A stretch of 64,000 bases of DNA, from assembly GCF_013141915.1 (NCBI RefSeq), contig NZ_SROX01000002.1:496001-560000 (forward strand), written 5' to 3'. The notes beneath the pieces were generated by a model. The model saw only the letters and a program-made list of their open reading frames with translations. It was not told the origin of the DNA and did no database searches. The position numbers were made by a program, and so were the translations under genes. This DNA is from Cupriavidus necator. GTDB taxonomy: Bacteria > Pseudomonadota > Gammaproteobacteria > Burkholderiales > Burkholderiaceae. Position 1 is the first letter of the stretch; every line of letters begins with the position of its first letter. Shown here in pieces: positions 53,407 to 64,000 of the stretch.

Positions 53407-54042
53407 ATGAAAGAAAAACTGATCGCGCTGGAAGGCCACGCGGGCTATGCCGCGCCGCGCTATTCGCGCGGCCTGCGCACCACCCATGCGCTGCTTGCGG
53501 CGGGCCGGCGGCTGCTGCGCGAGCGCACGCTGGAGCAGGTCTCGATCCACGAAATCTGCGCCCACGCCGGCGTCACCACCGGCGCCTTCTACAGCCGCTT
53601 CGACGGCAAGGACAGCTATTTCAAGGCGCTGCAGGCGCTCGCGCTGGCCACGCTGCGCCGGGCCATGGCGGCGCGCCTGGCCCAGCTCGACCACGCCCCC
53701 ACCACGCTGGAAGACGCGGTGCATACGCTGGCCCGCGGCAGCCGGATCTGGGCTTATCGCAATGAAGGGGTGCTGCGCGCCTCGCTGGTGGCGCGCGCCA
53801 CCACCGGCGAGGACCCGGTCCGCCAGCTCAATCGCCAGTACATGCTCGACCTGGCTACACGCCTGGCACGGCTGCACCCGGCCGGCCCTTCACCGCAACT
53901 GGAATTGCGTATCCGCTTCGCGCACCAGGCGCTGGCCGGCACGCTGCTGTATGCGCTGATCAACCGCGAGAGCACCTTTGCGCTGTCGGAGCGGCGGCTC
54001 GATATGGAAATGGCGCGGGCCTTCCTGCTGACGGTGGCATAG
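53407..54042 (+). CDS. TetR-family transcriptional regulator
   Basis: 211 aa. The HTH is RTLEQVSIHEICAHAGVTTGAFYSRFDGKDSYFKAL (DNA-binding helices about 39-75), with an all-helical C-terminal effector domain. It is divergent from the phosphotransferase/acyl-CoA dehydrogenase group and likely represses it. AATTGATAATCTGAATTAT near 53286 is a possible operator in the 158-base gap. It is the last chromosomal gene before the transposon end, which lies 73 bases after its stop. Confidence 0.87.
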   Translation: MKEKLIALEGHAGYAAPRYSRGLRTTHALLAAGRRLLRERTLEQVSIHEICAHAGVTTGAFYSRFDGKDSYFKALQALALATLRRAMAARLAQLDHAPTTLEDAVHTLARGSRIWAYRNEGVLRASLVARATTGEDPVRQLNRQYMLDLATRLARLHPAGPSPQLELRIRFAHQALAGTLLYALINRESTFALSERRLDMEMARAFLLTVA

Positions 54043-54114: not shown

Positions 54115-54302
54115 TGTGAGCAACAAATAGAACCGGATACGACCGCACAAACAGATTCGGATACTGAGCTAAAAATCGCTTTTATTTCAATAAGTTATAG
54201 CCACTTTCCTGAGCCCCGCTTTCGGCGGCATCTAGCGTCACTCCTTGGAAAGGGTAACCGAAGTGAGAACCTGTAAAAGTACAAATAGTTCCGGATACTA
54301 CC
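54115..54302 (+). repeat. Transposon end with three direct TnsB-binding-like sites
   Basis: TGTGAGCA at the tip, then site 1 at 54123 (ACAAATAGAACCGGATAC), site 2 at 54147 (ACAAACAGATTCGGATAC) and site 3 at 54281 (ACAAATAGTTCCGGATAC). All are in the same orientation; the first two are 24 bases apart and the third 134 further. The layout (tip, first site near base 9, several spaced sites) mirrors Tn7 ends, whose sites read ACAAAATAG followed by a G/A/C-rich half. Confidence 0.8.
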
Positions 54303-54399
54303 CCCATTGACTACCCGCACGACTGACGCGCGGGTCGAGTCAGGGGAGTTCGGTACCGGAAATGAAAGCTCTTGCACCTCCGCCCAGATGAACAGATGC

Positions 54400-54425
54400 A
54401 GAAGGCCGTCAGATGACGGCCTTCT
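54400..54425 (-). terminator. Hairpin downstream of tnsB
   Basis: 11-bp stem AGAAGGCCGTC/GACGGCCTTCT with an AGAT loop, 48 bases after the tnsB stop. It is flanked by direct repeats of CTTGCACCTC (54371 and 54424). It has no strong T-run but probably ends the tns operon transcript before the transposon tip. Confidence 0.55.
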
Positions 54426-54472
54426 TGCACCTCTCTCCCGCACGTGGCGACTTCCCGGCCGAGTTGTTCTGC

Positions 54473-56833
54473 TTACAAGAGTCCCAACTCTGCAAGGTAC
54501 TCCTCGTCTGAGCCCGCCGGCCGCTGCAGCGGTGGCGTATCCGACACTCGCTCAACTGCAACCTGCGGAAATTGGACGTCGTATGCGCTCGTTTCCGCAG
54601 CACCCCGCTCCTGCGCCCGCTTGAGTGCTGCTGTATCTTTAGCTGCTACCACCGTGGCTCCGCTCATACCAGCCAATGGATTACCCCTGCCACGTTCTGC
54701 AGCGGTAATTTGTTCATGCGTCTTTACCGACACCTGCCCTCGGTTGCGTCGACCTTTGTCCTTCAGTTTCCCGCCTCGGTGGTCATCGTCAAGGAGGTCC
54801 AGTTCAATTTGCTTCCAGGATACCGTGCCAAAGCTGAGGCGGTCCTCTGCGACCATCTCAAGCGCTTCCGTTGTGCCATCGTCTTTGCGCCACAACAGGA
54901 CTTGGTCGAAGCCGGTTAGCCGCTTCACCCATACACGGGGGTTCGTAACTTTGCCAGGCCGCTTGGCTCGCTCATTAAAGTAATCCGCCATTGCCGTTGA
55001 AGAGAATCGCACATCATTGATGTAGACAACCCCCTTTCGGCAAGCTTTGCTTATCCAAGGAATAAACCTGTCGTTCACTTCCGAGGGGGTGTACCTCCTC
55101 GCCGCGTCGCCATGCCGCTGCTCTTGGGTGTACTTGTGCAATGCTGCCGGATGGATGTCTACGCCGGCACTTCGCATAGTGCGCGTGCGCAGCCGCCTCT
55201 TATTCGTGTAGAGGTTGTAGTGGTTGAACGCCTTAAGCATGAACCGTTCGAAATCGTCGAGCGACAAAGGCGGCGCCTGGCGCATCAGCTGACGAATTTC
55301 TCTTGCTAGCACGTCCCTGTCCCGGGTCGCACCAATACGCTCCTCTGCCATCATCCGGATGAGCAGCGAATTGAGCCCCTCGATGACACCCTTTGTGTCA
55401 CCCCGGCCAGGCGGAGCGAGTATACGGATAAGCCCCATCTCATCGACAGCGACACTCACAACCTCTTCAGACGCGCCGGCGCCGTTGTCTACGAAGACGC
55501 CGTCAATCGAGCCTACAAGCAGGCCCTTCATCTGGCCAAGACCTAGTGCAGTGGCTCGCTCCTGTTTCGAAAGATAGATAGACGCGATGCATCGCCGAAA
55601 CGAGTCCGAATTCTCCGCCTTCAACGCGAACTCGTAGCCGAGGATAGCGCCTGTAAGCCTCGATACTGCGATGATGACTTTTATCGTGGTCCGCTCAATC
55701 TTCCCATTAATCTGGACAGCAATACCGACTTTTGGCACCCAGCCGTCGATGTCGACAATCTCAATGACGCCATAGGTTAGCTGACTAGCCTGGCCCGTCC
55801 TTGCGTCGTTATGTTGAGCGGATAGTTTGTGTCCAAGCCTTATCGCCTTTAGATTCTTCTCCTCTATTATTCGTGGCGCGTGATATAAGAACATTCTTAT
55901 TGTTGGAATCAAGCGCTTTGCCCACCTCTTATAACTATCCGCAACAAGATATCTATAAGTAGTCCTATAATTTAGTCTGCCAATCGCCCAATAGGTACGA
56001 AGCGCAGACTCGAACTTAAGCAGGTCTGACTTACGCACGGGACGCTGGCGCTTGAAATTCTTTTCTCCCGAGAAATGTGCTCTGTTTTTTTCGAGCAACT
56101 CCATCTTGGACAACCGGCCCGGTTTTCTACCGTTTAATCCGGTGCGACTTGCTCCCTTCCCCCCTTGAAATGAAGTCAGCCTTGCGAGCGCGCAGTCGCC
56201 TCCACCGTAATGGAGGTACTTGGTAAGCAGCTCCAACATGTACGGCCGGTAGCTAGCCGCTCGACCAATTGCCTCTATGACTCTTCGCACAGCTTGACCG
56301 CACGCCTTGGCATCAAAGATGATTTCGTCATTAAAGATGAAATCATCTGGATTTCCGTCGCCAGTCCGGTCCAACATCAGCACCGCCGATACGACCATAT
56401 TGCGAAAGGCCAAGCCGTGCGAGGCCGAAGGCGGAATATCTCCTTGGTCGGGGTTCATGAACTGCGGACGAACCATGTCAGGGACTACCGCAATTGATAA
56501 GCCACTCTGCAGGTCCGGTGCCACAATGAGCTCGTCAGGCTTGCGCGCCCCTTCCGGCGCTTTTCCTACAACTACGGGCTGTGCATAGAGCCTCCTGGCG
56601 CATGGATTCCATGCGACGGCTCGTCTCAGCAGCTGCTTCTTGCTATCTCCAGTTGTAAAGACGTCGAATCGAGATAGGTTGAATGGCCAAGGACTTGCAT
56701 GTACTTCCGCCAACCAGTCCAACTGAGCAGAAGTTGCCTTTGCAGGCAAAACGACCGTCTTGGAATCCGCCAAGACAAAATGCGAACTATTCACTTTTAC
56801 CACCTCACCGCAATACATGAAGCGCTTCGTCAT
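54473..56833 (-). CDS. tnsB: Transposase TnsB (DDE integrase family)
   Basis: 786 aa. An N-terminal DNA-binding region (RKPGRLSKMELLEKN, TYWAIGRLNYRTTYRYLVAD) precedes a retroviral-integrase-like core. The core has catalytic Asp363 in EIVDIDGWVP, Asp449 in GVFVDNGAG and Glu485 in GDTKGVIEGLN, an exact DD(35)E spacing. A beta-barrel and a charged C-terminal tail (ending DEEYLAELGLL), probably contacting TnsC, complete the protein. TnsB binds the end repeats and cuts the 3' ends. Its start overlaps the tnsA stop by 29 bases; ATG 56818 would reduce this. Confidence 0.88.
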   Translation of the reverse strand: MTKRFMYCGEVVKVNSSHFVLADSKTVVLPAKATSAQLDWLAEVHASPWPFNLSRFDVFTTGDSKKQLLRRAVAWNPCARRLYAQPVVVGKAPEGARKPDELIVAPDLQSGLSIAVVPDMVRPQFMNPDQGDIPPSASHGLAFRNMVVSAVLMLDRTGDGNPDDFIFNDEIIFDAKACGQAVRRVIEAIGRAASYRPYMLELLTKYLHYGGGDCALARLTSFQGGKGASRTGLNGRKPGRLSKMELLEKNRAHFSGEKNFKRQRPVRKSDLLKFESALRTYWAIGRLNYRTTYRYLVADSYKRWAKRLIPTIRMFLYHAPRIIEEKNLKAIRLGHKLSAQHNDARTGQASQLTYGVIEIVDIDGWVPKVGIAVQINGKIERTTIKVIIAVSRLTGAILGYEFALKAENSDSFRRCIASIYLSKQERATALGLGQMKGLLVGSIDGVFVDNGAGASEEVVSVAVDEMGLIRILAPPGRGDTKGVIEGLNSLLIRMMAEERIGATRDRDVLAREIRQLMRQAPPLSLDDFERFMLKAFNHYNLYTNKRRLRTRTMRSAGVDIHPAALHKYTQEQRHGDAARRYTPSEVNDRFIPWISKACRKGVVYINDVRFSSTAMADYFNERAKRPGKVTNPRVWVKRLTGFDQVLLWRKDDGTTEALEMVAEDRLSFGTVSWKQIELDLLDDDHRGGKLKDKGRRNRGQVSVKTHEQITAAERGRGNPLAGMSGATVVAAKDTAALKRAQERGAAETSAYDVQFPQVAVERVSDTPPLQRPAGSDEEYLAELGLL

Positions 56834-57593
56834 CTCTGAATGGCTTCGTATGGTCTACTCTCAACATTCCAAAGCTGGCTGCAATCGAAAAAAGCTCATG
56901 GGCGCGGTCTTCCGGCACAGCCAGCTGTTTCGCAATCCGCCGCATAACAGAACCGAGCGTGCCATTTGTCGAACGTTTTTTTACATACTCTGCAAAGGCA
57001 TCCGCCTCCTCGTACTGTGCAAAGACATCCTGGTCACGTATGGTCCGATACATGACCAAATAGTTGGAGAACTCAAGGGCGCTGTATGCGTTACTGGGCA
57101 TAAACTCCCATGTCCATCCTAGTTTCCCCAGAGCCTCCTCTTCTCGCTGGTGTCTCGCCTCATCCTTTTCACTGAGGTCCGCACCGGCCAACTTTACTGA
57201 AATGCCGTGATAGTGGATGCGGTAGTCGGGCGGGAGGACCAACGTCACGACTATGTCTATAGACATCTTGTCAGCCTCGAACATGCGCCTTCCGGCTCGC
57301 ACGGCTCTGTTATAGGCTTCCTGTTCATAGATGGGGAACTGCTCCCGGATGTCGACGACGTAGGGGTTGAACGCCAACGCTAGCAATGGCCGAAACTCCG
57401 TGAAAGCCAGCGTTTCATAACGCCGCTTGAATTTCAGTCCTCTGAACGTAACTCGCGTGCTCCGGCGCGGAGTCCTTGCCTTCTTTGCTGCCTCGAAGCC
57501 TTCACCATGAGGCTGTCCAACGATGTCGCGCCCCGGAAGCCACAAGCCCGGCGGGGTAACGAACGGAGCCCGAGTGTCTTCAATAATCCTCAC
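56805..57593 (-). CDS. tnsA: Transposon endonuclease TnsA
   Basis: 262 aa. A restriction-endonuclease-like fold with the catalytic triad preserved: Glu66 in LAFTEFRPLLAL, Asp113 in KMSIDIVVTL and Lys134 in HGISVKLAG. These positions are close to those of Tn7 TnsA (E63, D114, K132). NPYVVDIREQFPI is the conserved TnsA stretch. The C-terminal half (helical, EEADAFAEYVKKR) is the winged-helix TnsC-contact domain. TnsA cuts the 5' ends and makes excision clean. Overlaps the upstream tniQ stop by four bases. Confidence 0.88.
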   Translation of the reverse strand: MRIIEDTRAPFVTPPGLWLPGRDIVGQPHGEGFEAAKKARTPRRSTRVTFRGLKFKRRYETLAFTEFRPLLALAFNPYVVDIREQFPIYEQEAYNRAVRAGRRMFEADKMSIDIVVTLVLPPDYRIHYHGISVKLAGADLSEKDEARHQREEEALGKLGWTWEFMPSNAYSALEFSNYLVMYRTIRDQDVFAQYEEADAFAEYVKKRSTNGTLGSVMRRIAKQLAVPEDRAHELFSIAASFGMLRVDHTKPFRDDEALHVLR

Positions 57594-59191
57594 TGTCGTT
57601 TCCTTGCAGCCTTGAGGAGAGAATGAACGCGCCTGTCCTCAAGCACGTCGACCGATGCAACTTCGTTTGGGGAAATCGAAGGCACCAGCCCCTTGACGAC
57701 GAAACCCTTGAGCCGTCGCCTCTTGTAGGCACTTGGACTCTCCTCATATACAGCCAAAACAAGCTTTGTCTGTGGAAGCAGGTGCTCGATACCCGCGAAA
57801 ACGGACACCATCTTGTGCCGACCAAAGAGACGTGTCCGCGACAGGCGACCCTCGAAGCCTGCTTTGCGGAGTGCGGCGGCTGTCTTCTCAACCTGCTCGG
57901 CAAGAGAAGAGTCTAGCGACACGTAGTATTCAGGCCCGCTCCTTGCCTTCGCTGGCTCCACGCCCATCGCCTTAAGTCGACTACGTGTAAGGATTTCCCC
58001 TGCGTGGCGTGGCATTCGCAGAAGTAGGGAGCTATGTGTCTCCGTAGGATGCGTCTCCCTAAGCTCCCGATACTGCTTTGCATACTGGTAAGCGTTCTCC
58101 TCAGCCCTTTTCCTCGCGTTTTCCTTGTAACGTGCACGAGATGCCGCTGATGTCCGACTTTTCGCCGTTGCTGCGCCCGGCCTGACATCTGTCGAGTTGT
58201 CACGCTCGGAATGAAGCGCAGCGACGACTTGACTCCAACTACCGTATAGGGCCTGCATCAGAAGAATTGCGTGCACTGGCCGTCGAGGCAGCACACCATC
58301 CTTCATGATTCTTGAGACGACTAACCCCTTGTTTCCGGGAAACCCCGTGCGAGCCATCTTGCTACGAAACGGGCTCTCAGCAATCAATTCATTCAGTCCG
58401 GACCGATTCAAACGGCCCGTCTCGGCCAAGCCTAGAGTAGCGAGCTTGGTCTGAATCAACCTAACCATGGCTGAACGGTTCATGCCTGGAATAGCTGATT
58501 CGTCGAGTAGTTGCGACCACGCCCTTGCAAAGTCAATTTCGGCCTCTGCCTCCGCGAGGTCTAGGTTCGACGAGCGTAGAACAAGCTGGGCCCCGCAAAT
58601 GCAACGATAGCGCGGTCGACAGATGCCAGCGGATGTGCGGAAGCCATTCTGGCAAACTCCGCAATGAATTTTGAGAGGTTCCGCATGCCTCCAGCAGTAG
58701 GAAACATCGGCTAAGATGAAATCCCGGCGCCAAAAGGCTTGCCCGTCCGCGGCGATATCCTCATTCAAGCATCCGGTGCAAATTCCTGGTTGCCAAGAGG
58801 GTCCCGAAACTGACACCCCAGCGAGACCGACCAATGACGCAATACCCTGCACCGGTGACGACAAATGATGCGCATTCACAAGGGATACATCGCCATCAGT
58901 GAGAAATCGGTTAAGTGCGGGTGCGATGGTGTTCCTACTCAGTACTTCGTCCGGTGTTCCAACAGCATCTCCGAGCAACTCTGCCATCTCCCGAATCCGA
59001 CTAGGTAGCAACCATGGTATTCGACCGTGGTGGTACGTATTCATCGAGCTCGACAACTGGTTATGTAGCGATGTCAGGCTGAATCTTCGATGCCCTGCAA
59101 TGTATCCAGCCAAAATTTCACCGGGAATAATTTGCCTGGTCATTAATCGACCTAACAAACCATTTTCAACACAACAACCATCCGTCTTCAT
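57590..59191 (-). CDS. tniQ: TniQ/TnsD-family targeting protein (second copy)
   Basis: 533 aa from ATG 59191, or 516 from ATG 59140 (MTRQIIPGEILAGYIAGHRR, the usual TniQ start). The zinc-binding TniQ core has Cys138/Cys141 in ICTGCLNED, Cys166/His169 in YCWRHAEPL, Cys177/Cys180 in CGVC and Cys197/Cys199 in CICG. A long C-terminal part, rich in Arg/Lys, may bind target DNA (KSRTSAASRARYKENARKRA). It overlaps tniQ 1 upstream and tnsA downstream by four bases each. Its partner role to the first TniQ is unknown. Confidence 0.86.
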   Translation of the reverse strand: MKTDGCCVENGLLGRLMTRQIIPGEILAGYIAGHRRFSLTSLHNQLSSSMNTYHHGRIPWLLPSRIREMAELLGDAVGTPDEVLSRNTIAPALNRFLTDGDVSLVNAHHLSSPVQGIASLVGLAGVSVSGPSWQPGICTGCLNEDIAADGQAFWRRDFILADVSYCWRHAEPLKIHCGVCQNGFRTSAGICRPRYRCICGAQLVLRSSNLDLAEAEAEIDFARAWSQLLDESAIPGMNRSAMVRLIQTKLATLGLAETGRLNRSGLNELIAESPFRSKMARTGFPGNKGLVVSRIMKDGVLPRRPVHAILLMQALYGSWSQVVAALHSERDNSTDVRPGAATAKSRTSAASRARYKENARKRAEENAYQYAKQYRELRETHPTETHSSLLLRMPRHAGEILTRSRLKAMGVEPAKARSGPEYYVSLDSSLAEQVEKTAAALRKAGFEGRLSRTRLFGRHKMVSVFAGIEHLLPQTKLVLAVYEESPSAYKRRRLKGFVVKGLVPSISPNEVASVDVLEDRRVHSLLKAARKRQ

Positions 59192-60660
59192 CTATTTATT
59201 TTTACCCCTCCGGCTCCCCTAGCTTCGGGGGCCGAACCGTAGAGGAAGACGAGAACGGTCTCCACACGCAACCTCGCGGCTCTCGCAATCGTGTCGGGCC
59301 GTACCGGCTGGCGCCATCGATTTAGCTCGCTCATCGCCCACTCGACGCGATGAGAAACCAGACGACGTTTCGAACATGAATCTTTGTCGTACCAACCGAC
59401 CTTCGAAAGATTTTTCAGCGCCAGTCGGAACGCGCCCTCGTTAAGCCCATAGTGCAGTCTCGCTTGGTATGCTGAGCAAAGGGGCGGCGGAAGGTTTGTA
59501 CCCGACAGTGGCGCCGCGCAGTCGCCCTTAAGGACTTTGGTCATCCAGCTTGGAATGTCTCGCTGTCTTCTACCTCCAGCAGGTCGCATACGCGGTGCCT
59601 GGTTGAGGATGAGCCAGGCCCTATCGTTGCGGCGGAGCCAGAACCACAATGCAGATTTTCTATTCCGCGCGTCGCTTCTTGACTCGTCAGGATGGGTCGC
59701 ACGCTCTTTCAGCCACTCTGCTCGCTTCCTGCTCGACAACTCATGGGGTACGCTGGAAGCAGGCTTGCTGATGGCACGCCGGCTTGCTGATGTACGGCTT
59801 GTCTTGCAGCCTTGGCTTTCGTCCAAACACCACAACATGAGCGTAAGGAGAACGGGATGAACTCCTCTATCTTCCCGATGTAAGGAGCGATAGATACGTA
59901 ATGCCAGGTCTGACTCGCGAGCAATCGCAGTGAGACGGCAATCTTCGAATCCTGCCGAGAAATTTTTCGCAAAGTCTTGGCATAGCTCATTCACAGAAAG
60001 GCGACCGTCGGGGCTCACATACCCTTTCTCAACAAGCAAATGACTAACCACGCCGCGAAGCCGTCCACTCTCCGAAGCCCGGCTCGTTGCAAATGACCTA
60101 ACCGCAAACCTCTCGCTATTCGACCTTGACGCGGCTGAGGCTTCCTGCTGGCATAGAGCCTCGAAAGTGGAGCACGGGTCTGAAAGGCGTAGCGGAGCAT
60201 GATGGTGAGGGCAGCGACTGACGTAGGGAAGGCACTCATGACAGAGCGACACCCCCCGTCCAACAGCGACTACTGATGCGGCTTGGCACTCTGGGCAGCG
60301 CATTCCGTAGCGATGACCGGACTCGAGCAACACTGGCAGTCGTGGAGCACATGTCCTGAACCTGAGCTCGCTTATTAGCTGCGTTTGAAGACGGCCTCGA
60401 AGAAAATCTGGCATCCCAGCAAGCTCGTACGCGAAGAGCGCGTGGTGATGAAGAACCTCGAGTTCCCCCCCATAGAGTCCACGAGTCAGTTCGCAGAATC
60501 GACGTACGCGGCAAGGCAACGTATAGATGAGGGGATAACAGCGACGGAATGCCATGGCGACCGTTCGACATATCTCCCGGTCTCCCGTGGATACAGCTGC
60601 TGCGCACAATAAACTAAACGCCGTTTCGTCATCTGCAGCTGGATAGAAAATTGGTAGCAT
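59188..60660 (-). CDS. tniQ: TniQ/TnsD-family targeting protein (first copy)
   Basis: 490 aa. The N-terminal TniQ domain (about 1-175) starts FYPAADDETAFSLLCAAA. It has a Cys-rich zinc-binding set: Cys122/Cys125 in MRCPECQ, Cys140/Cys143 in LCHECLPYVSRCPHHHAPL, Cys150 and His152/His153. A TnsD-like C-terminal extension of about 300 residues with basic and helical parts (RRNDRAWLILNQAP, GWYDKDSCSKRRLVSHRVEW) probably recognises the attachment site. It starts 16 bases after the tnsC-like stop and overlaps the second tniQ by four bases. Confidence 0.84.
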   Translation of the reverse strand: MLPIFYPAADDETAFSLLCAAAVSTGDREICRTVAMAFRRCYPLIYTLPCRVRRFCELTRGLYGGELEVLHHHALFAYELAGMPDFLRGRLQTQLISELRFRTCAPRLPVLLESGHRYGMRCPECQAASVVAVGRGVSLCHECLPYVSRCPHHHAPLRLSDPCSTFEALCQQEASAASRSNSERFAVRSFATSRASESGRLRGVVSHLLVEKGYVSPDGRLSVNELCQDFAKNFSAGFEDCRLTAIARESDLALRIYRSLHREDRGVHPVLLTLMLWCLDESQGCKTSRTSASRRAISKPASSVPHELSSRKRAEWLKERATHPDESRSDARNRKSALWFWLRRNDRAWLILNQAPRMRPAGGRRQRDIPSWMTKVLKGDCAAPLSGTNLPPPLCSAYQARLHYGLNEGAFRLALKNLSKVGWYDKDSCSKRRLVSHRVEWAMSELNRWRQPVRPDTIARAARLRVETVLVFLYGSAPEARGAGGVKINR

Positions 60661-60676
60661 TTTGACGCTGACTTCT

Positions 60677-62041
60677 TCAGGATGCGCTTAGAGTTTTGGC
60701 GGCAACAGCCGCATCAAGGCCAAGAGCGGTCTTCATCATCACCTCTAGCGGAATCCAGTCACCATGGCGGCGCAGGCTAGCATTGGTAAACGTGCCGCCA
60801 CCGTGTGCCTGGCGAACCGCTCGTAGATGTGGCTCATGGATTAGGGTCGCCTCTGCGGCCAGCACTGCAAACTCCTCTTCCCCAAAGGCTTTCTCATCTT
60901 TAAGCTTGAGAGCTGCCTCAGTTGCCTTTGCAGCCGGCACGGCTACGCCTGGGTGTCCCAGTGACGCGTTCCACAGCGCCGCAGGGAACCAGTCAGGCAT
61001 CACGCCGCCATTCGCGAACGGGAGGCATTGCATATATATTGCCTTGGCAATCGCTTTCCATTCGTTAGTGTCCCGGCCATACGGAGTGATTCGGTGAACT
61101 CCATTCGGGCACAGGTCACCAATGGAGCCGGATTGTTCAGCCAGACCAGTCGCAGCACCCGGCGTCAACAGGCACAACACGGGAATTCCTGTCGTTCGAG
61201 TAAAAATTCCAAGCGCATCCCAGGTATCCGGGGCGTATCGAGAGGTGGCATCACGTGTATTGATGCGTTCCACGATAAGCAATCCGAGATTGACGCCCGT
61301 TGCCAACGCGCATAGTGCCGGGACGATGTCTTCCTCGCGGAACAGCGGACCCCTCGTTCGATGAGAATACTCGGAGCGAACTACGGAGTCGAATGCACCG
61401 ACAAACTGTTTCGCAAAGGTCCTTAGCTTTCCATTCGTTGGCCAGCTGACTCGAAGTGTTCTCAGTCGCAGGAACTCGGCGAATCCGTTTTCGGTGTCGA
61501 CCCTGATGGTGTGGTAGCCGCTGCCAATGTAGCTTTGAACTGCATCTGCTATCCGCCCTCGACCAGTACGAGCAGGCGCGCACACGAGAATTCCTCGAGG
61601 CTTGGCGTTTGGAGCTTTCCCCGCTCTGGCGGGAATTCGATGGCCGTGTCTATCGTAAGACTGATGCAAGAACTCCAGCGCCGTATACGTGTAAGCGCGA
61701 TAGGCTGCATCGTTCAGATTGCGGTAAGCATAGGAGCTCCTGACTTGCGTCACGACCTCAATCAGTATTCTCGCCTGCGGTGTAGTGGGCACGAAGAGCC
61801 GAGCGCTTTCGTCAATGTCAGCCGAATCAGTTCTTGGTGACACCACTGTAGATGCGCTCAGATACGGCAAGCAGGCCATTTCCCGCCTAGCAACGGCAAG
61901 AGTTGGCACTCTCGGGGTATCAAGCAGTGCGGGATTTTCAAGCCTTGATGCCACCGTGTGAACGAGCGGCTTCAATGCTTGCCCGACCGAGGCAAGCGCG
62001 CTGTCAGTTGACATATTGCAAACGTTTTTTGCTCCGACCAC
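60677..62041 (-). CDS. tnsC: TnsC-like AAA+ protein with degenerate Walker motifs
   Basis: 454 aa from GTG 62041 (445 from ATG 62014). The order of AAA+ elements matches TnsC: P-loop region GILVCAPARTGRGRI (150-164), Walker B region LGLLIVERIN (253-261) and sensor-1 region FTRTTGIPVLCLLTPGAA. The catalytic residues are gone, however. In the P-loop, Gly-x4-Gly-Lys-Thr/Ser reads Ala-x4-Gly-Arg-Gly, and in Walker B Asp-Glu reads Val-Glu. ATP binding or hydrolysis is therefore doubtful. Family membership rests on context and motif order rather than strong similarity. Confidence 0.7.
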   Translation of the reverse strand: MVGAKNVCNMSTDSALASVGQALKPLVHTVASRLENPALLDTPRVPTLAVARREMACLPYLSASTVVSPRTDSADIDESARLFVPTTPQARILIEVVTQVRSSYAYRNLNDAAYRAYTYTALEFLHQSYDRHGHRIPARAGKAPNAKPRGILVCAPARTGRGRIADAVQSYIGSGYHTIRVDTENGFAEFLRLRTLRVSWPTNGKLRTFAKQFVGAFDSVVRSEYSHRTRGPLFREEDIVPALCALATGVNLGLLIVERINTRDATSRYAPDTWDALGIFTRTTGIPVLCLLTPGAATGLAEQSGSIGDLCPNGVHRITPYGRDTNEWKAIAKAIYMQCLPFANGGVMPDWFPAALWNASLGHPGVAVPAAKATEAALKLKDEKAFGEEEFAVLAAEATLIHEPHLRAVRQAHGGGTFTNASLRRHGDWIPLEVMMKTALGLDAAVAAKTLSAS

Positions 62042-62183
62042 CGAAAAGGCGGTCGGAATAGGTCACCAGGAGGGACGTGATGACACACCATCCCTCGAGC
62101 GATGTTGCTGTAGATGCTGAATAGCTTTGCGAGCCATGACTGAACGCGCAAAGACCAAAGGACTACGGCCCCTTGCAAGCAAG

Positions 62184-62750
62184 CTATTTGGAGCGAATGC
62201 TCTGCCTTTTCCGCCTGCGCCCCACTACGGTCTGCGCCTCGTTAGTCTTCGTGTCGGGGTCGCGAGAAATAGATTCGAATACCGGGGCGCTGGAAGTGGG
62301 CGGTTCTCTGTGCAACCTGCGCCGGCTCATGAGCCTTTCTTCTATCGACTTTTGGTCGGGCCTCAGCCGAAGTAGCTGCGCTTCGTGCGCAAGCACCGCA
62401 CGCTTAATTGCAGCCCTAGTCGCTTTAGCCGCTTTAGGCACACGGAACAGCACCTTCGCCGAAGTGGCCTTCGAATTGCAAGCTGTGTTGGCAGCGACCA
62501 GGGCCGACGCCAGTTCTAGGTTGGACCCTGGCGGTCCCTCTGTCTCCATTACCGAGGAAAGGTGTGGGTATGCGGTGCTCTGGACGCAGTTTGCGGCGGA
62601 CCCGAGATAAACCACAACGTGCCGAATGCCAGAATCTTTGAGGCATGACATGAGGCGGGCAACCGACGGCCAATCGGCGTAGGCTACTTCGAGTAATCGA
62701 AGTTCTACGCGGCAGCCTTGCGTCACCGCGATGTTGTCATTAGACCACAT
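62184..62750 (-). CDS. Unrecognised basic protein upstream of tnsC
   Basis: 188 aa from ATG 62750, which follows AAAAGGA by six bases; a longer frame starting at 62870 lacks a ribosome-binding site. The first 70 residues look alpha/beta (ELRLLEVAYADWPSVARLMS, GIRHVVVYLGSAANCV). A helical, very basic part follows (AAKATRAAIKRAVLAHEAQL) and the tail is GRRRKRQSIRSK. It resembles no family I know. It lies 142 bases upstream of tnsC in the same direction, so a DNA-binding accessory or regulatory role in transposition is plausible but unproven. Confidence 0.5.
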   Translation of the reverse strand: MWSNDNIAVTQGCRVELRLLEVAYADWPSVARLMSCLKDSGIRHVVVYLGSAANCVQSTAYPHLSSVMETEGPPGSNLELASALVAANTACNSKATSAKVLFRVPKAAKATRAAIKRAVLAHEAQLLRLRPDQKSIEERLMSRRRLHREPPTSSAPVFESISRDPDTKTNEAQTVVGRRRKRQSIRSK

Positions 62751-63271
62751 TCTGTGTCCTTTTTGCCTGGAGTTAGGCGTGCGAATGCCGCCCTCCCTCC
62801 ATTTGGGTTGACAAATTGGGGGCGGACAAAAGACACTTGCGATTCGTGGGTGCGTGTCTTCTGTTCGCACTCTGGGCGGTGTAAAGGGCCCTAATCCTTT
62901 GCTCCGCCCGCCCCTTCCTACAGCACATTGCTGTACGGCTGTTCACTGACAAAGTCAGTGAATATCTCTCTTCCTTGTACTCCGGTCTTACCCCTTCATT
63001 GCATCGGCCATGGCACGTGGGTGTCTGGCTTCAATCTGTGTAATACGGCTCTAAACTGTGACGCTTGGAATTTAGGAAGGCGCATCCTCTAAAATTGCGC
63101 TAAAATCTAAATTCCACGTTGTTCGGCTCGTATTTTTTCAAAACGAGCAAAATTCTAGCACGCTCCTTTTCCGCGCCGCAATGGGCATGGGGCTTTGTCG
63201 CGTCCCTACGTTGTGATTCGCACGGATGCTCGCCCACCTCATGCCTCCCAAGCAATTCCCCCCCATCAACC
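62751..63271. promoter_or_regulatory. 520-base gene-free region with four inverted repeats
   Basis: AAGACAC/GTGTCTT (62830-62860), TACAGCA-CAT-TGCTGTA (62919-62935), TTCACTGAC-AAA-GTCAGTGAA (62942-62962, 21 bases) and TGGAATTTAG/CTAAATTCCA (63066-63116) are all perfect. The region precedes the transposition operon and is the likely site of its promoter and control. The middle two, six bases apart, look like paired operators or a riboregulatory structure. No coding sequence is supported. Confidence 0.55.
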
Positions 63272-63817
63272 CTAGGCAGTAACTCGGTCTACAGAGACCG
63301 AGCGCTGCAGCGGGCTTCCCACATCGTCGGCCACTAGCAGCGCTATTAACCTGTCGCAGGCCCCGGCGGATGCGAGCCCATACCAGCCATCCACAATGCA
63401 AGATGAATCAGTAAGTGCCGGCGCAATCTGCCTGTAGTCGCAATCCACCAAGACCGGCTGCAGCGGTCGACGACGAATAAGGTCTTCGTCTAGCCAGGAG
63501 CGTCGCGCACCGGTTGGCCTCAGTCTGGCACGAAGGCCTCGAGTACCGCGCCATGTCGCTCCGATGACATGCAACCGTACCTCCTGTGGCAGCATCTCTA
63601 ACACCCTCCGATATCCGAGTGCAGGCACCCACAAGGTGTGCAGCACCACCTGCGTTTGCGGACACGATTCGATGACCTGCTCAAGAATCACGCTGTTCTC
63701 AAAAAAAGCATGACCGCCAGCGTGCAACTGAGGCAAGCGCCGTCCGTTAAATGAAACGAGGTTTGGATGGAGCACGCCGTCGAATGCCAGGTAAAGCGTT
63801 GCTGCTGCAGTCCCCAT
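63272..63817 (-). CDS. HAD-fold protein with nucleophile Asp replaced by Ala
   Basis: 181 aa. The fold is that of HAD domains such as those in Swiss-Army-Knife RNA-repair proteins: motif I LYLAFDGVLHP near residue 8, motif II region TQVVLHTLWVPALGYRRVL, and the last motif PVLVDCDYRQIAPALTDSSC. In normal HADs motif I is DFDGV; here the first Asp is Ala, so phosphatase chemistry is unlikely. ATG 63817 follows GGGGA by six bases. It is probably transposon cargo or an accessory gene. The frame stays open upstream to the window edge. Confidence 0.65.
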   Translation of the reverse strand: MGTAAATLYLAFDGVLHPNLVSFNGRRLPQLHAGGHAFFENSVILEQVIESCPQTQVVLHTLWVPALGYRRVLEMLPQEVRLHVIGATWRGTRGLRARLRPTGARRSWLDEDLIRRRPLQPVLVDCDYRQIAPALTDSSCIVDGWYGLASAGACDRLIALLVADDVGSPLQRSVSVDRVTA

Positions 63818-63888
63818 AGCTATCCCCAGGGAGCATAGACTCTGGGAACGTGTCCGTTTGGGGCCCTCTACAGTCGACGGACTTGGGT

Positions 63889-64000
63889 CTAAAATGCCTG
63901 TTCCAGAGACGAATTTTTTGTCGGCTCGAGCCTTCCACGCGCGACCAGGTTTAGCTCCGCCTGTGTAAGGCCACCCGCCAATAGATACTGCCCTGCTGCA
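63889..64000 (-). CDS. C-terminal end of an unidentified gene (5' end outside window)
   Basis: An open frame enters from the right edge and stops at TAG (63889). The last residues read QYLLAGGLTQAELNLVARG then RLEPTKNSSLEQAF, an amphipathic helical pattern that looks more protein-like than the other frames. It lies 71 bases upstream of the HAD-like gene in the same direction. Too short to classify. Confidence 0.35.
   Translation of the reverse strand, partial: AAGQYLLAGGLTQAELNLVARGRLEPTKNSSLEQAF

Follow-up and report, generated by a model that had tools for sequence, protein, structure and literature searches.

TnsC links the target selector of a Tn7-like transposon to its transposase, and type V-K CASTs are known to lack TnsA. 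According to the accessible part of one account (PMC11406308), changing the Walker B glutamate of TnsC renders Tn7 hyperactive even without target selectors, and the same change cripples Tn6677, ShCAST and McCAST; that part also describes some V-K CAST TnsC proteins without Walker motifs, so that a Walker-less TnsC is, as such, already known. A search of the open-access literature, within the text accessible there, returned no account of a C-D-D-A-B gene order, nor of a Walker-less TnsC outside V-K CASTs, nor any report of such a protein fixed in a clade that carries TnsA, homes to glmS and has a distinct operon.

The element described here begins within a window, the whole stretch of 64,000 nucleotides that was analysed (G000:C22:496001-560000). 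Judged from sequence, the probability is roughly two in three that it represents a distinct clade of Tn7-like, glmS-homing transposons that have a C-D-D-A-B operon and a TnsC turned pseudo-ATPase. The features of the window are:

53407-54042, plus strand: TetR-family gene in the host flank, which in element-free related genomes adjoins glmS
54115-54298, no strand: glmS-distal element end, with terminal TGTGAG and three TnsB-type sites ACAAAYAGNNYCGGATAC at 54123, 54147 and 54281
54473-56833, minus strand: TnsB, DDE transposase, 786 aa, with D363, D449 and E485 present
56805-57593, minus strand: TnsA, endonuclease, 262 aa, with PF08722 at 0.14 and an alignment with TnsA of R721 Tn7
57590-59191, minus strand: TniQ2, TniQ family, 533 aa (TniQ PF06527, 3e-6; PADLOC TniQ, 8.4e-10)
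59188-60660, minus strand: TniQ1, TnsD-like and the probable glmS selector, 490 aa (Pfam TnsD PF15978, 8e-10)
60677-62041, minus strand: TnsC-like AAA+ protein, 454 aa, in which canonical Walker A and B are lacking
61265-61282, minus strand: degenerate Walker B of TnsC, residues 254-259, LLIVER, with E258 for the D and R259 for the E
61556-61579, minus strand: degenerate Walker A of TnsC, residues 155-162, APARTGRG, with R161 for the K and G162 for the T
62042-64000, no strand: start of the cargo region, the element running beyond the window to window-equivalent 106662

The leftward order tnsC-like, tniQ, tniQ, tnsA, tnsB claimed in an earlier note on this DNA agrees with the ORF coordinates, all on the minus strand, as does the tight packing: a 16-base gap between tnsC and tniQ1, 4-base overlaps, and an overlap of 29 bases between tnsA and tnsB. 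The profile searches proposed there identified TniQ1 and TniQ2 through Pfam, TnsA at 0.14 only, which is below the curated cut-off of PF08722, and TnsC and TnsB through profiles of their relatives. With single sequences little was seen: TnsB and TnsC matched no relevant Pfam family, none of the five tns/tniQ proteins matched NCBIfam, TnsC found the solved Tn7 TnsC at 0.15 only, and TnsB found nothing relevant among solved proteins. The relatives' profiles reached Tn7 TnsC at 8.6e-22 and Tn7 TnsB (7pik) at 1.1e-40. In the TnsA alignment E66, D113 and K134 of the window protein (numbers hand-counted) lie opposite E63, D114 and K132, which we take to be the catalytic residues of Tn7 TnsA. The element possesses a TnsC-type AAA+ regulator by fold and homology, a TniQ/TnsD target selector (PF06527, PF15978), a TnsB-homologous DDE transposase with the DDE conserved, and TGT/ACA ends with TnsB-site arrays; canonical Walker A and B motifs, usual though not definitional for a Tn7-like TnsC, are lacking.

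The element end seen at 54115 is real: TGTGAG is followed by the three TnsB-type sites, and the end pattern, with up to 3 mismatches, is matched four times in the window against 0.43 expected, a count that none of 100 shuffles reached. The fourth match, at 62265, lies away from the element end. G+C content is about 0.56 from the left end onward, against about 0.68, and a 105-kb contig scan located oppositely oriented end-motif sites at 602611 and 602635, where high G+C resumes. The element therefore occupies 550115-602662 in C22 coordinates, 52,548 bp (~52.5 kb). Beyond 602662 the opposite strand carries the end of a gene that we take to be glmS from its C-terminal motif (DKPRNLAKSVTVE stop); the element starts 23 bp past the stop, a Tn7-type insertion. 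At the opposite end, the TetR-gene flank is found beside glmS in L064-L068, five of the eight loci with at least 85% flank identity in 60 same-genus genomes searched (junction sequence inspected in four of the five).

Three TnsB-type sites are present at each end of the window element and of that in G110; in G000, G011 and G110 the third site of the end upstream of tnsC points the opposite way to the outer two (G000:C22:602553; G011:1981799; G110:2926638). The match at 62265-62282, a TnsB-like site with 2 mismatches, is ~220 bp upstream of the window tnsC. It was seen in one of seven elements, the window's own, and in none of six relatives; autoregulation through such a site as a general feature was therefore rejected. 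The cargo outside the window (G000:C22:564845-597300, L032 and L033, ~33 kb) is defence-rich, judged from a scan of 10 of its 28 ORFs, with a short prokaryotic Argonaute and SIR2 partner, McrBC, QatA, Druantia DruE and type I restriction genes.

Knowledge of both ends disposes of a contrast of orientation with Tn7 drawn in the earlier note: transcription of the window tns genes leads away from glmS, just as it does in Tn7, and the genes are displaced to the glmS-distal end, not reversed. The same direction holds in G205, L133 and L134, and the closely related G148 and G720 are transcribed towards glmS. glmS adjoins the mapped element end in G000, G148, G205 and G720; in L133 and L134 it is ~2 kb upstream of tnsC, a position relative to tnsC and not to mapped ends; and in G104 a different element, L088, has its tns genes between the C-D-D-A-B element and glmS. 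For G011 and G110 the glmS motif is absent from the 100 kb taken around each, and simple ORF calls gave their target genes no name. Their TniQ1 ORFs are short (303 and 355 codons), which fits a role of TniQ1 as the glmS selector. TnsB lies within 0.4 kb of an element end in G000, G110 and G104; in G148, G011 and G205 the two are separated by 7-9 kb of other DNA.

To place the element we read gene order with iterated profiles at 69 loci, which came from searching the family, order and class with TnsB and include Tn7 of plasmid R721; these loci were picked by similarity to the query clade, part of the TnsB matches being fetched, and are not a random sample. The TnsB tree has 65 rows (L091, L097, L099 and L135, with TnsB below 560 aa, left out) and the TnsC tree 64 (L135 left out); both are quick searches with several long branches, and the comparators include Tn7 twice, as the identical L111 and L144. 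The clade forms one side of a branch in each tree, with 29 of 65 rows for TnsB and 28 of 64 for TnsC, SH-aLRT being 99 in both.

The degenerate ATPase site of TnsC had been overlooked in the earlier note. Walker A is intact in only one of 29 clade TnsC proteins, L134, against 36 of 36 outside, and Walker B in none of the 29 against 35 of 35 (30 clade rows were aligned, and the L135 fragment was left out of the count). Within the clade the Walker B acidic pair is gone throughout (29/29), and Walker A is graded from intact to erased: L085, L093, L094 and L133 have K changed to R with the Ser/Thr kept, L089 and L129 keep the K, and the remaining 22 show neither Lys nor Arg with a following Ser/Thr at the Walker A columns. 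In the loci recovered afterwards through TnsB alone (L181, L183-L185) TnsC likewise lacks the motifs (4/4). The clade TnsC proteins that share the loss are highly diverged, at 15-39% identity; a TnsC fold is present despite the Walker loss. L128 (the same locus as L186) holds, within a single operon, two TnsC genes that differ from each other and both lack Walker motifs, the order being C-D-C-A-B, and the window's genome contains a second C-D-D-A-B gene set, L089 (G000:C43:300508-308190), whose TnsB is ~0.3 kb from a G+C junction judged by eye and whose TnsC keeps the Walker lysine but not the Ser/Thr.

The partial P-loops of L085, L093, L094, L133, L089 and L129, with the intact one of L134, would suit a TnsC that binds, and perhaps hydrolyses, nucleotide via a non-canonical pocket, but the lack of even such remnants in 22 of 29 proteins and the disappearance of the acidic pair from every one make this rather unlikely.

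Clade TnsC is under purifying selection: dN/dS is 0.088-0.263 in five clade pairs, near the TnsB values of the same pairs. Two control pairs gave 0.071 and 0.126, and since the clade values are mostly higher, constraint may be somewhat relaxed. This excess, the Walker loss itself, the visible decay of clade locus L135 and the flanks of the window element, GCAGC and GCGCC, which form no identical 5-bp target duplication, could be taken as signs that TnsC is a decaying pseudogene and the elements immobile relics. But the TnsC genes are full-length, their dN/dS (0.09-0.26) is close to that of TnsB, the Walker loss spans the whole range of divergence given above, and insertions at glmS are found in several genomes. 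Moreover, among the six elements examined for flank repeats, that of G011 has an exact 5-bp duplication, GCCGC; G110 and G148 have 4-bp repeats, and in G205 and G104 no duplication was assignable. We consider decay of this kind improbable.

Slightly more improbable still is the supply in trans of an active TnsC or another AAA+ protein. Tn7-like elements do co-reside, and G104 offers a Walker-intact tns set (L088) beside its C-D-D-A-B set; but a canonical TnsC query (L106) matched nothing in the window's genome, in what is a weak test without positive control, the other TnsB match of that genome is also of the C-D-D-A-B type, and the P-loop ORFs of at least 250 aa at 28 loci, judged by inspection, revealed no recurring extra gene. 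The two Tn7-like gene sets of G104 (G104:C43:42085-131124) are on the same side of glmS.

There remains the gene order. The TnsB tree and extraction of neighbours, proposed as the check on an order read as ABCDD cut between B and C, returned not uniform ABCD homologues but conserved C-D-D-A-B, a lineage trait: the order is present in 5/5 nearest TnsB homologues (31-43% identity) and is exact in 24 of the 65 tree rows. The clade holds in addition L104, with an extra D fragment, L128, L107 (C-D-A-D-B), and L102 and L127, cut by contig ends. C comes first in all four later loci, L183-L185 being C-D-D-A-B (in L184 additional sequence separates D from A) and L181 C-D-A-B; the departures from the exact order in the clade are thus L107, L128 and L181. 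A local rearrangement of an ordinary ABCDD element in one genome, a possibility raised in the earlier note and in keeping with the varied gene orders of Tn7-like elements, is refuted by this conservation and can be set aside almost completely.

The clade's neighbours in the TnsB tree are L088, in which A-B faces D-D-C tail to tail, and L098 (C, insertion, D, A, B), then, with weak support, L100 (D-D-C-A-B); the other side of the branch holds A-B-C-D and A-B-C-D-D elements and Tn7, some rows being truncated or having D displaced. "Circular permutation" therefore stands as a description of the order but not as its route, for the arrangement in L088 makes a swap or inversion of AB and CDD modules appear at least as likely. 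The order change was probably earlier than the ATPase loss; with about one origin each, the two are correlated by descent only.

On our preferred reading, a clade whose TnsC has become a pseudo-ATPase, TniQ1 would bind the end of glmS, and a TnsC assembly, formed with neither binding nor hydrolysis of ATP, would bridge TniQ to the TnsA/TnsB-bound ends, whereupon TnsA and TnsB would cut and paste the element into attTn7. Protein contacts, perhaps via both TniQ proteins, would replace the nucleotide-gated step of Tn7, with a putative compensating role for TniQ2. A fuller version strikes us as evenly poised between true and false: transposition throughout the clade would proceed with TnsC neither binding nor hydrolysing ATP; once C-D-D-A-B had arisen, hydrolysis would have gone first, and binding would have been lost afterwards on several occasions; target licensing would rest on protein contacts in place of a nucleotide switch; and one subclade would also do without the TnsA active site. 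In that subclade (L103, L104, L105, L107, L108, L109, L132, L135) at least one TnsA catalytic residue is lost and the TnsB DDE is intact, as it is in 66 of 66 rows; such loss of TnsA residues could mean replicative transposition.

Named hosts of the clade are Burkholderia, Paraburkholderia and Caballeronia, of the window's family. An order-level search of 300 genomes added G1010 and G937, one genome each from two other families, and in a class-level search of 369 genomes no match outside the window's family was better than 3.4e-33. Scanning genome contigs with a single TnsB found nothing, and with a TnsB alignment six named loci, three being the same records as G148, G709 and G104; a plasmid search found one record among 72,556 and an IMG/VR search none. 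At E 0.01, Pfam families are matched by 0 of 18 clade TnsB and, weakly, by 1 of 12 clade TnsC, against 4 of 4 Walker-intact TnsC tested. Silence of TnsB is not special to the clade, since TnsB of L088 and L098 has no match either and that of Tn7 itself reaches only 0.0082. Earlier surveys, as far as the accessible parts of their descriptions go, were seeded with PF00665, PF05621, PF11426 and CAST alignments in one case and with PF00665, PF09299 and PF13401 in another; those that rely on Pfam to recognise TnsB or TnsC would probably have missed the clade. A TniQ-led survey could have met such elements, since TniQ1 and TniQ2 of the window match Pfam.

This lineage has kept TnsC, target homing and mostly both nucleases, yet has lost both Walker motifs. 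It offers a direct test of whether target choice requires ATP turnover or is only regulated by it, and Walker A, eroded by degrees inside a single clade, supplies a ready experimental series.

With Tn7 (the R721 copy, L111) the window element shares homologous TnsA, TnsB, TnsC and TnsD/TniQ, TGT/ACA ends, TnsB-type site arrays and the glmS attachment site (for Tn7, the accessible part of PMC11406308). It differs in having two TniQ genes, a TnsC without Walker motifs, and the order C-D-D-A-B at the glmS-distal end, where Tn7, as seen in R721, has A-B-C-D-E; in Tn7 proper that order begins at the glmS-side (right) end. The nearest non-clade elements, L088, L098 and L100, retain intact Walker motifs along with their different orders, and group together in the TnsC tree on the opposite side of the branch from the clade. 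Two tandem tniQ/tnsD genes and protein-guided homing are shared with the dual TniQ-TnsD Tn7-like elements (Faure et al. 2023, PMC10293859); the permuted operon and the probable pseudo-ATPase TnsC set the clade apart and do not occur in the accessible part of that description. Type V-K CASTs (the accessible part of Hsieh and Peters 2024, PMC11406308) likewise include natural TnsC proteins without canonical Walker A or B, but they are Cas12k-guided, whereas the window element homes to glmS and has a TnsA with its E/D/K residues, two TniQ proteins and a TnsC of 454 aa with a Tn7-like fold.
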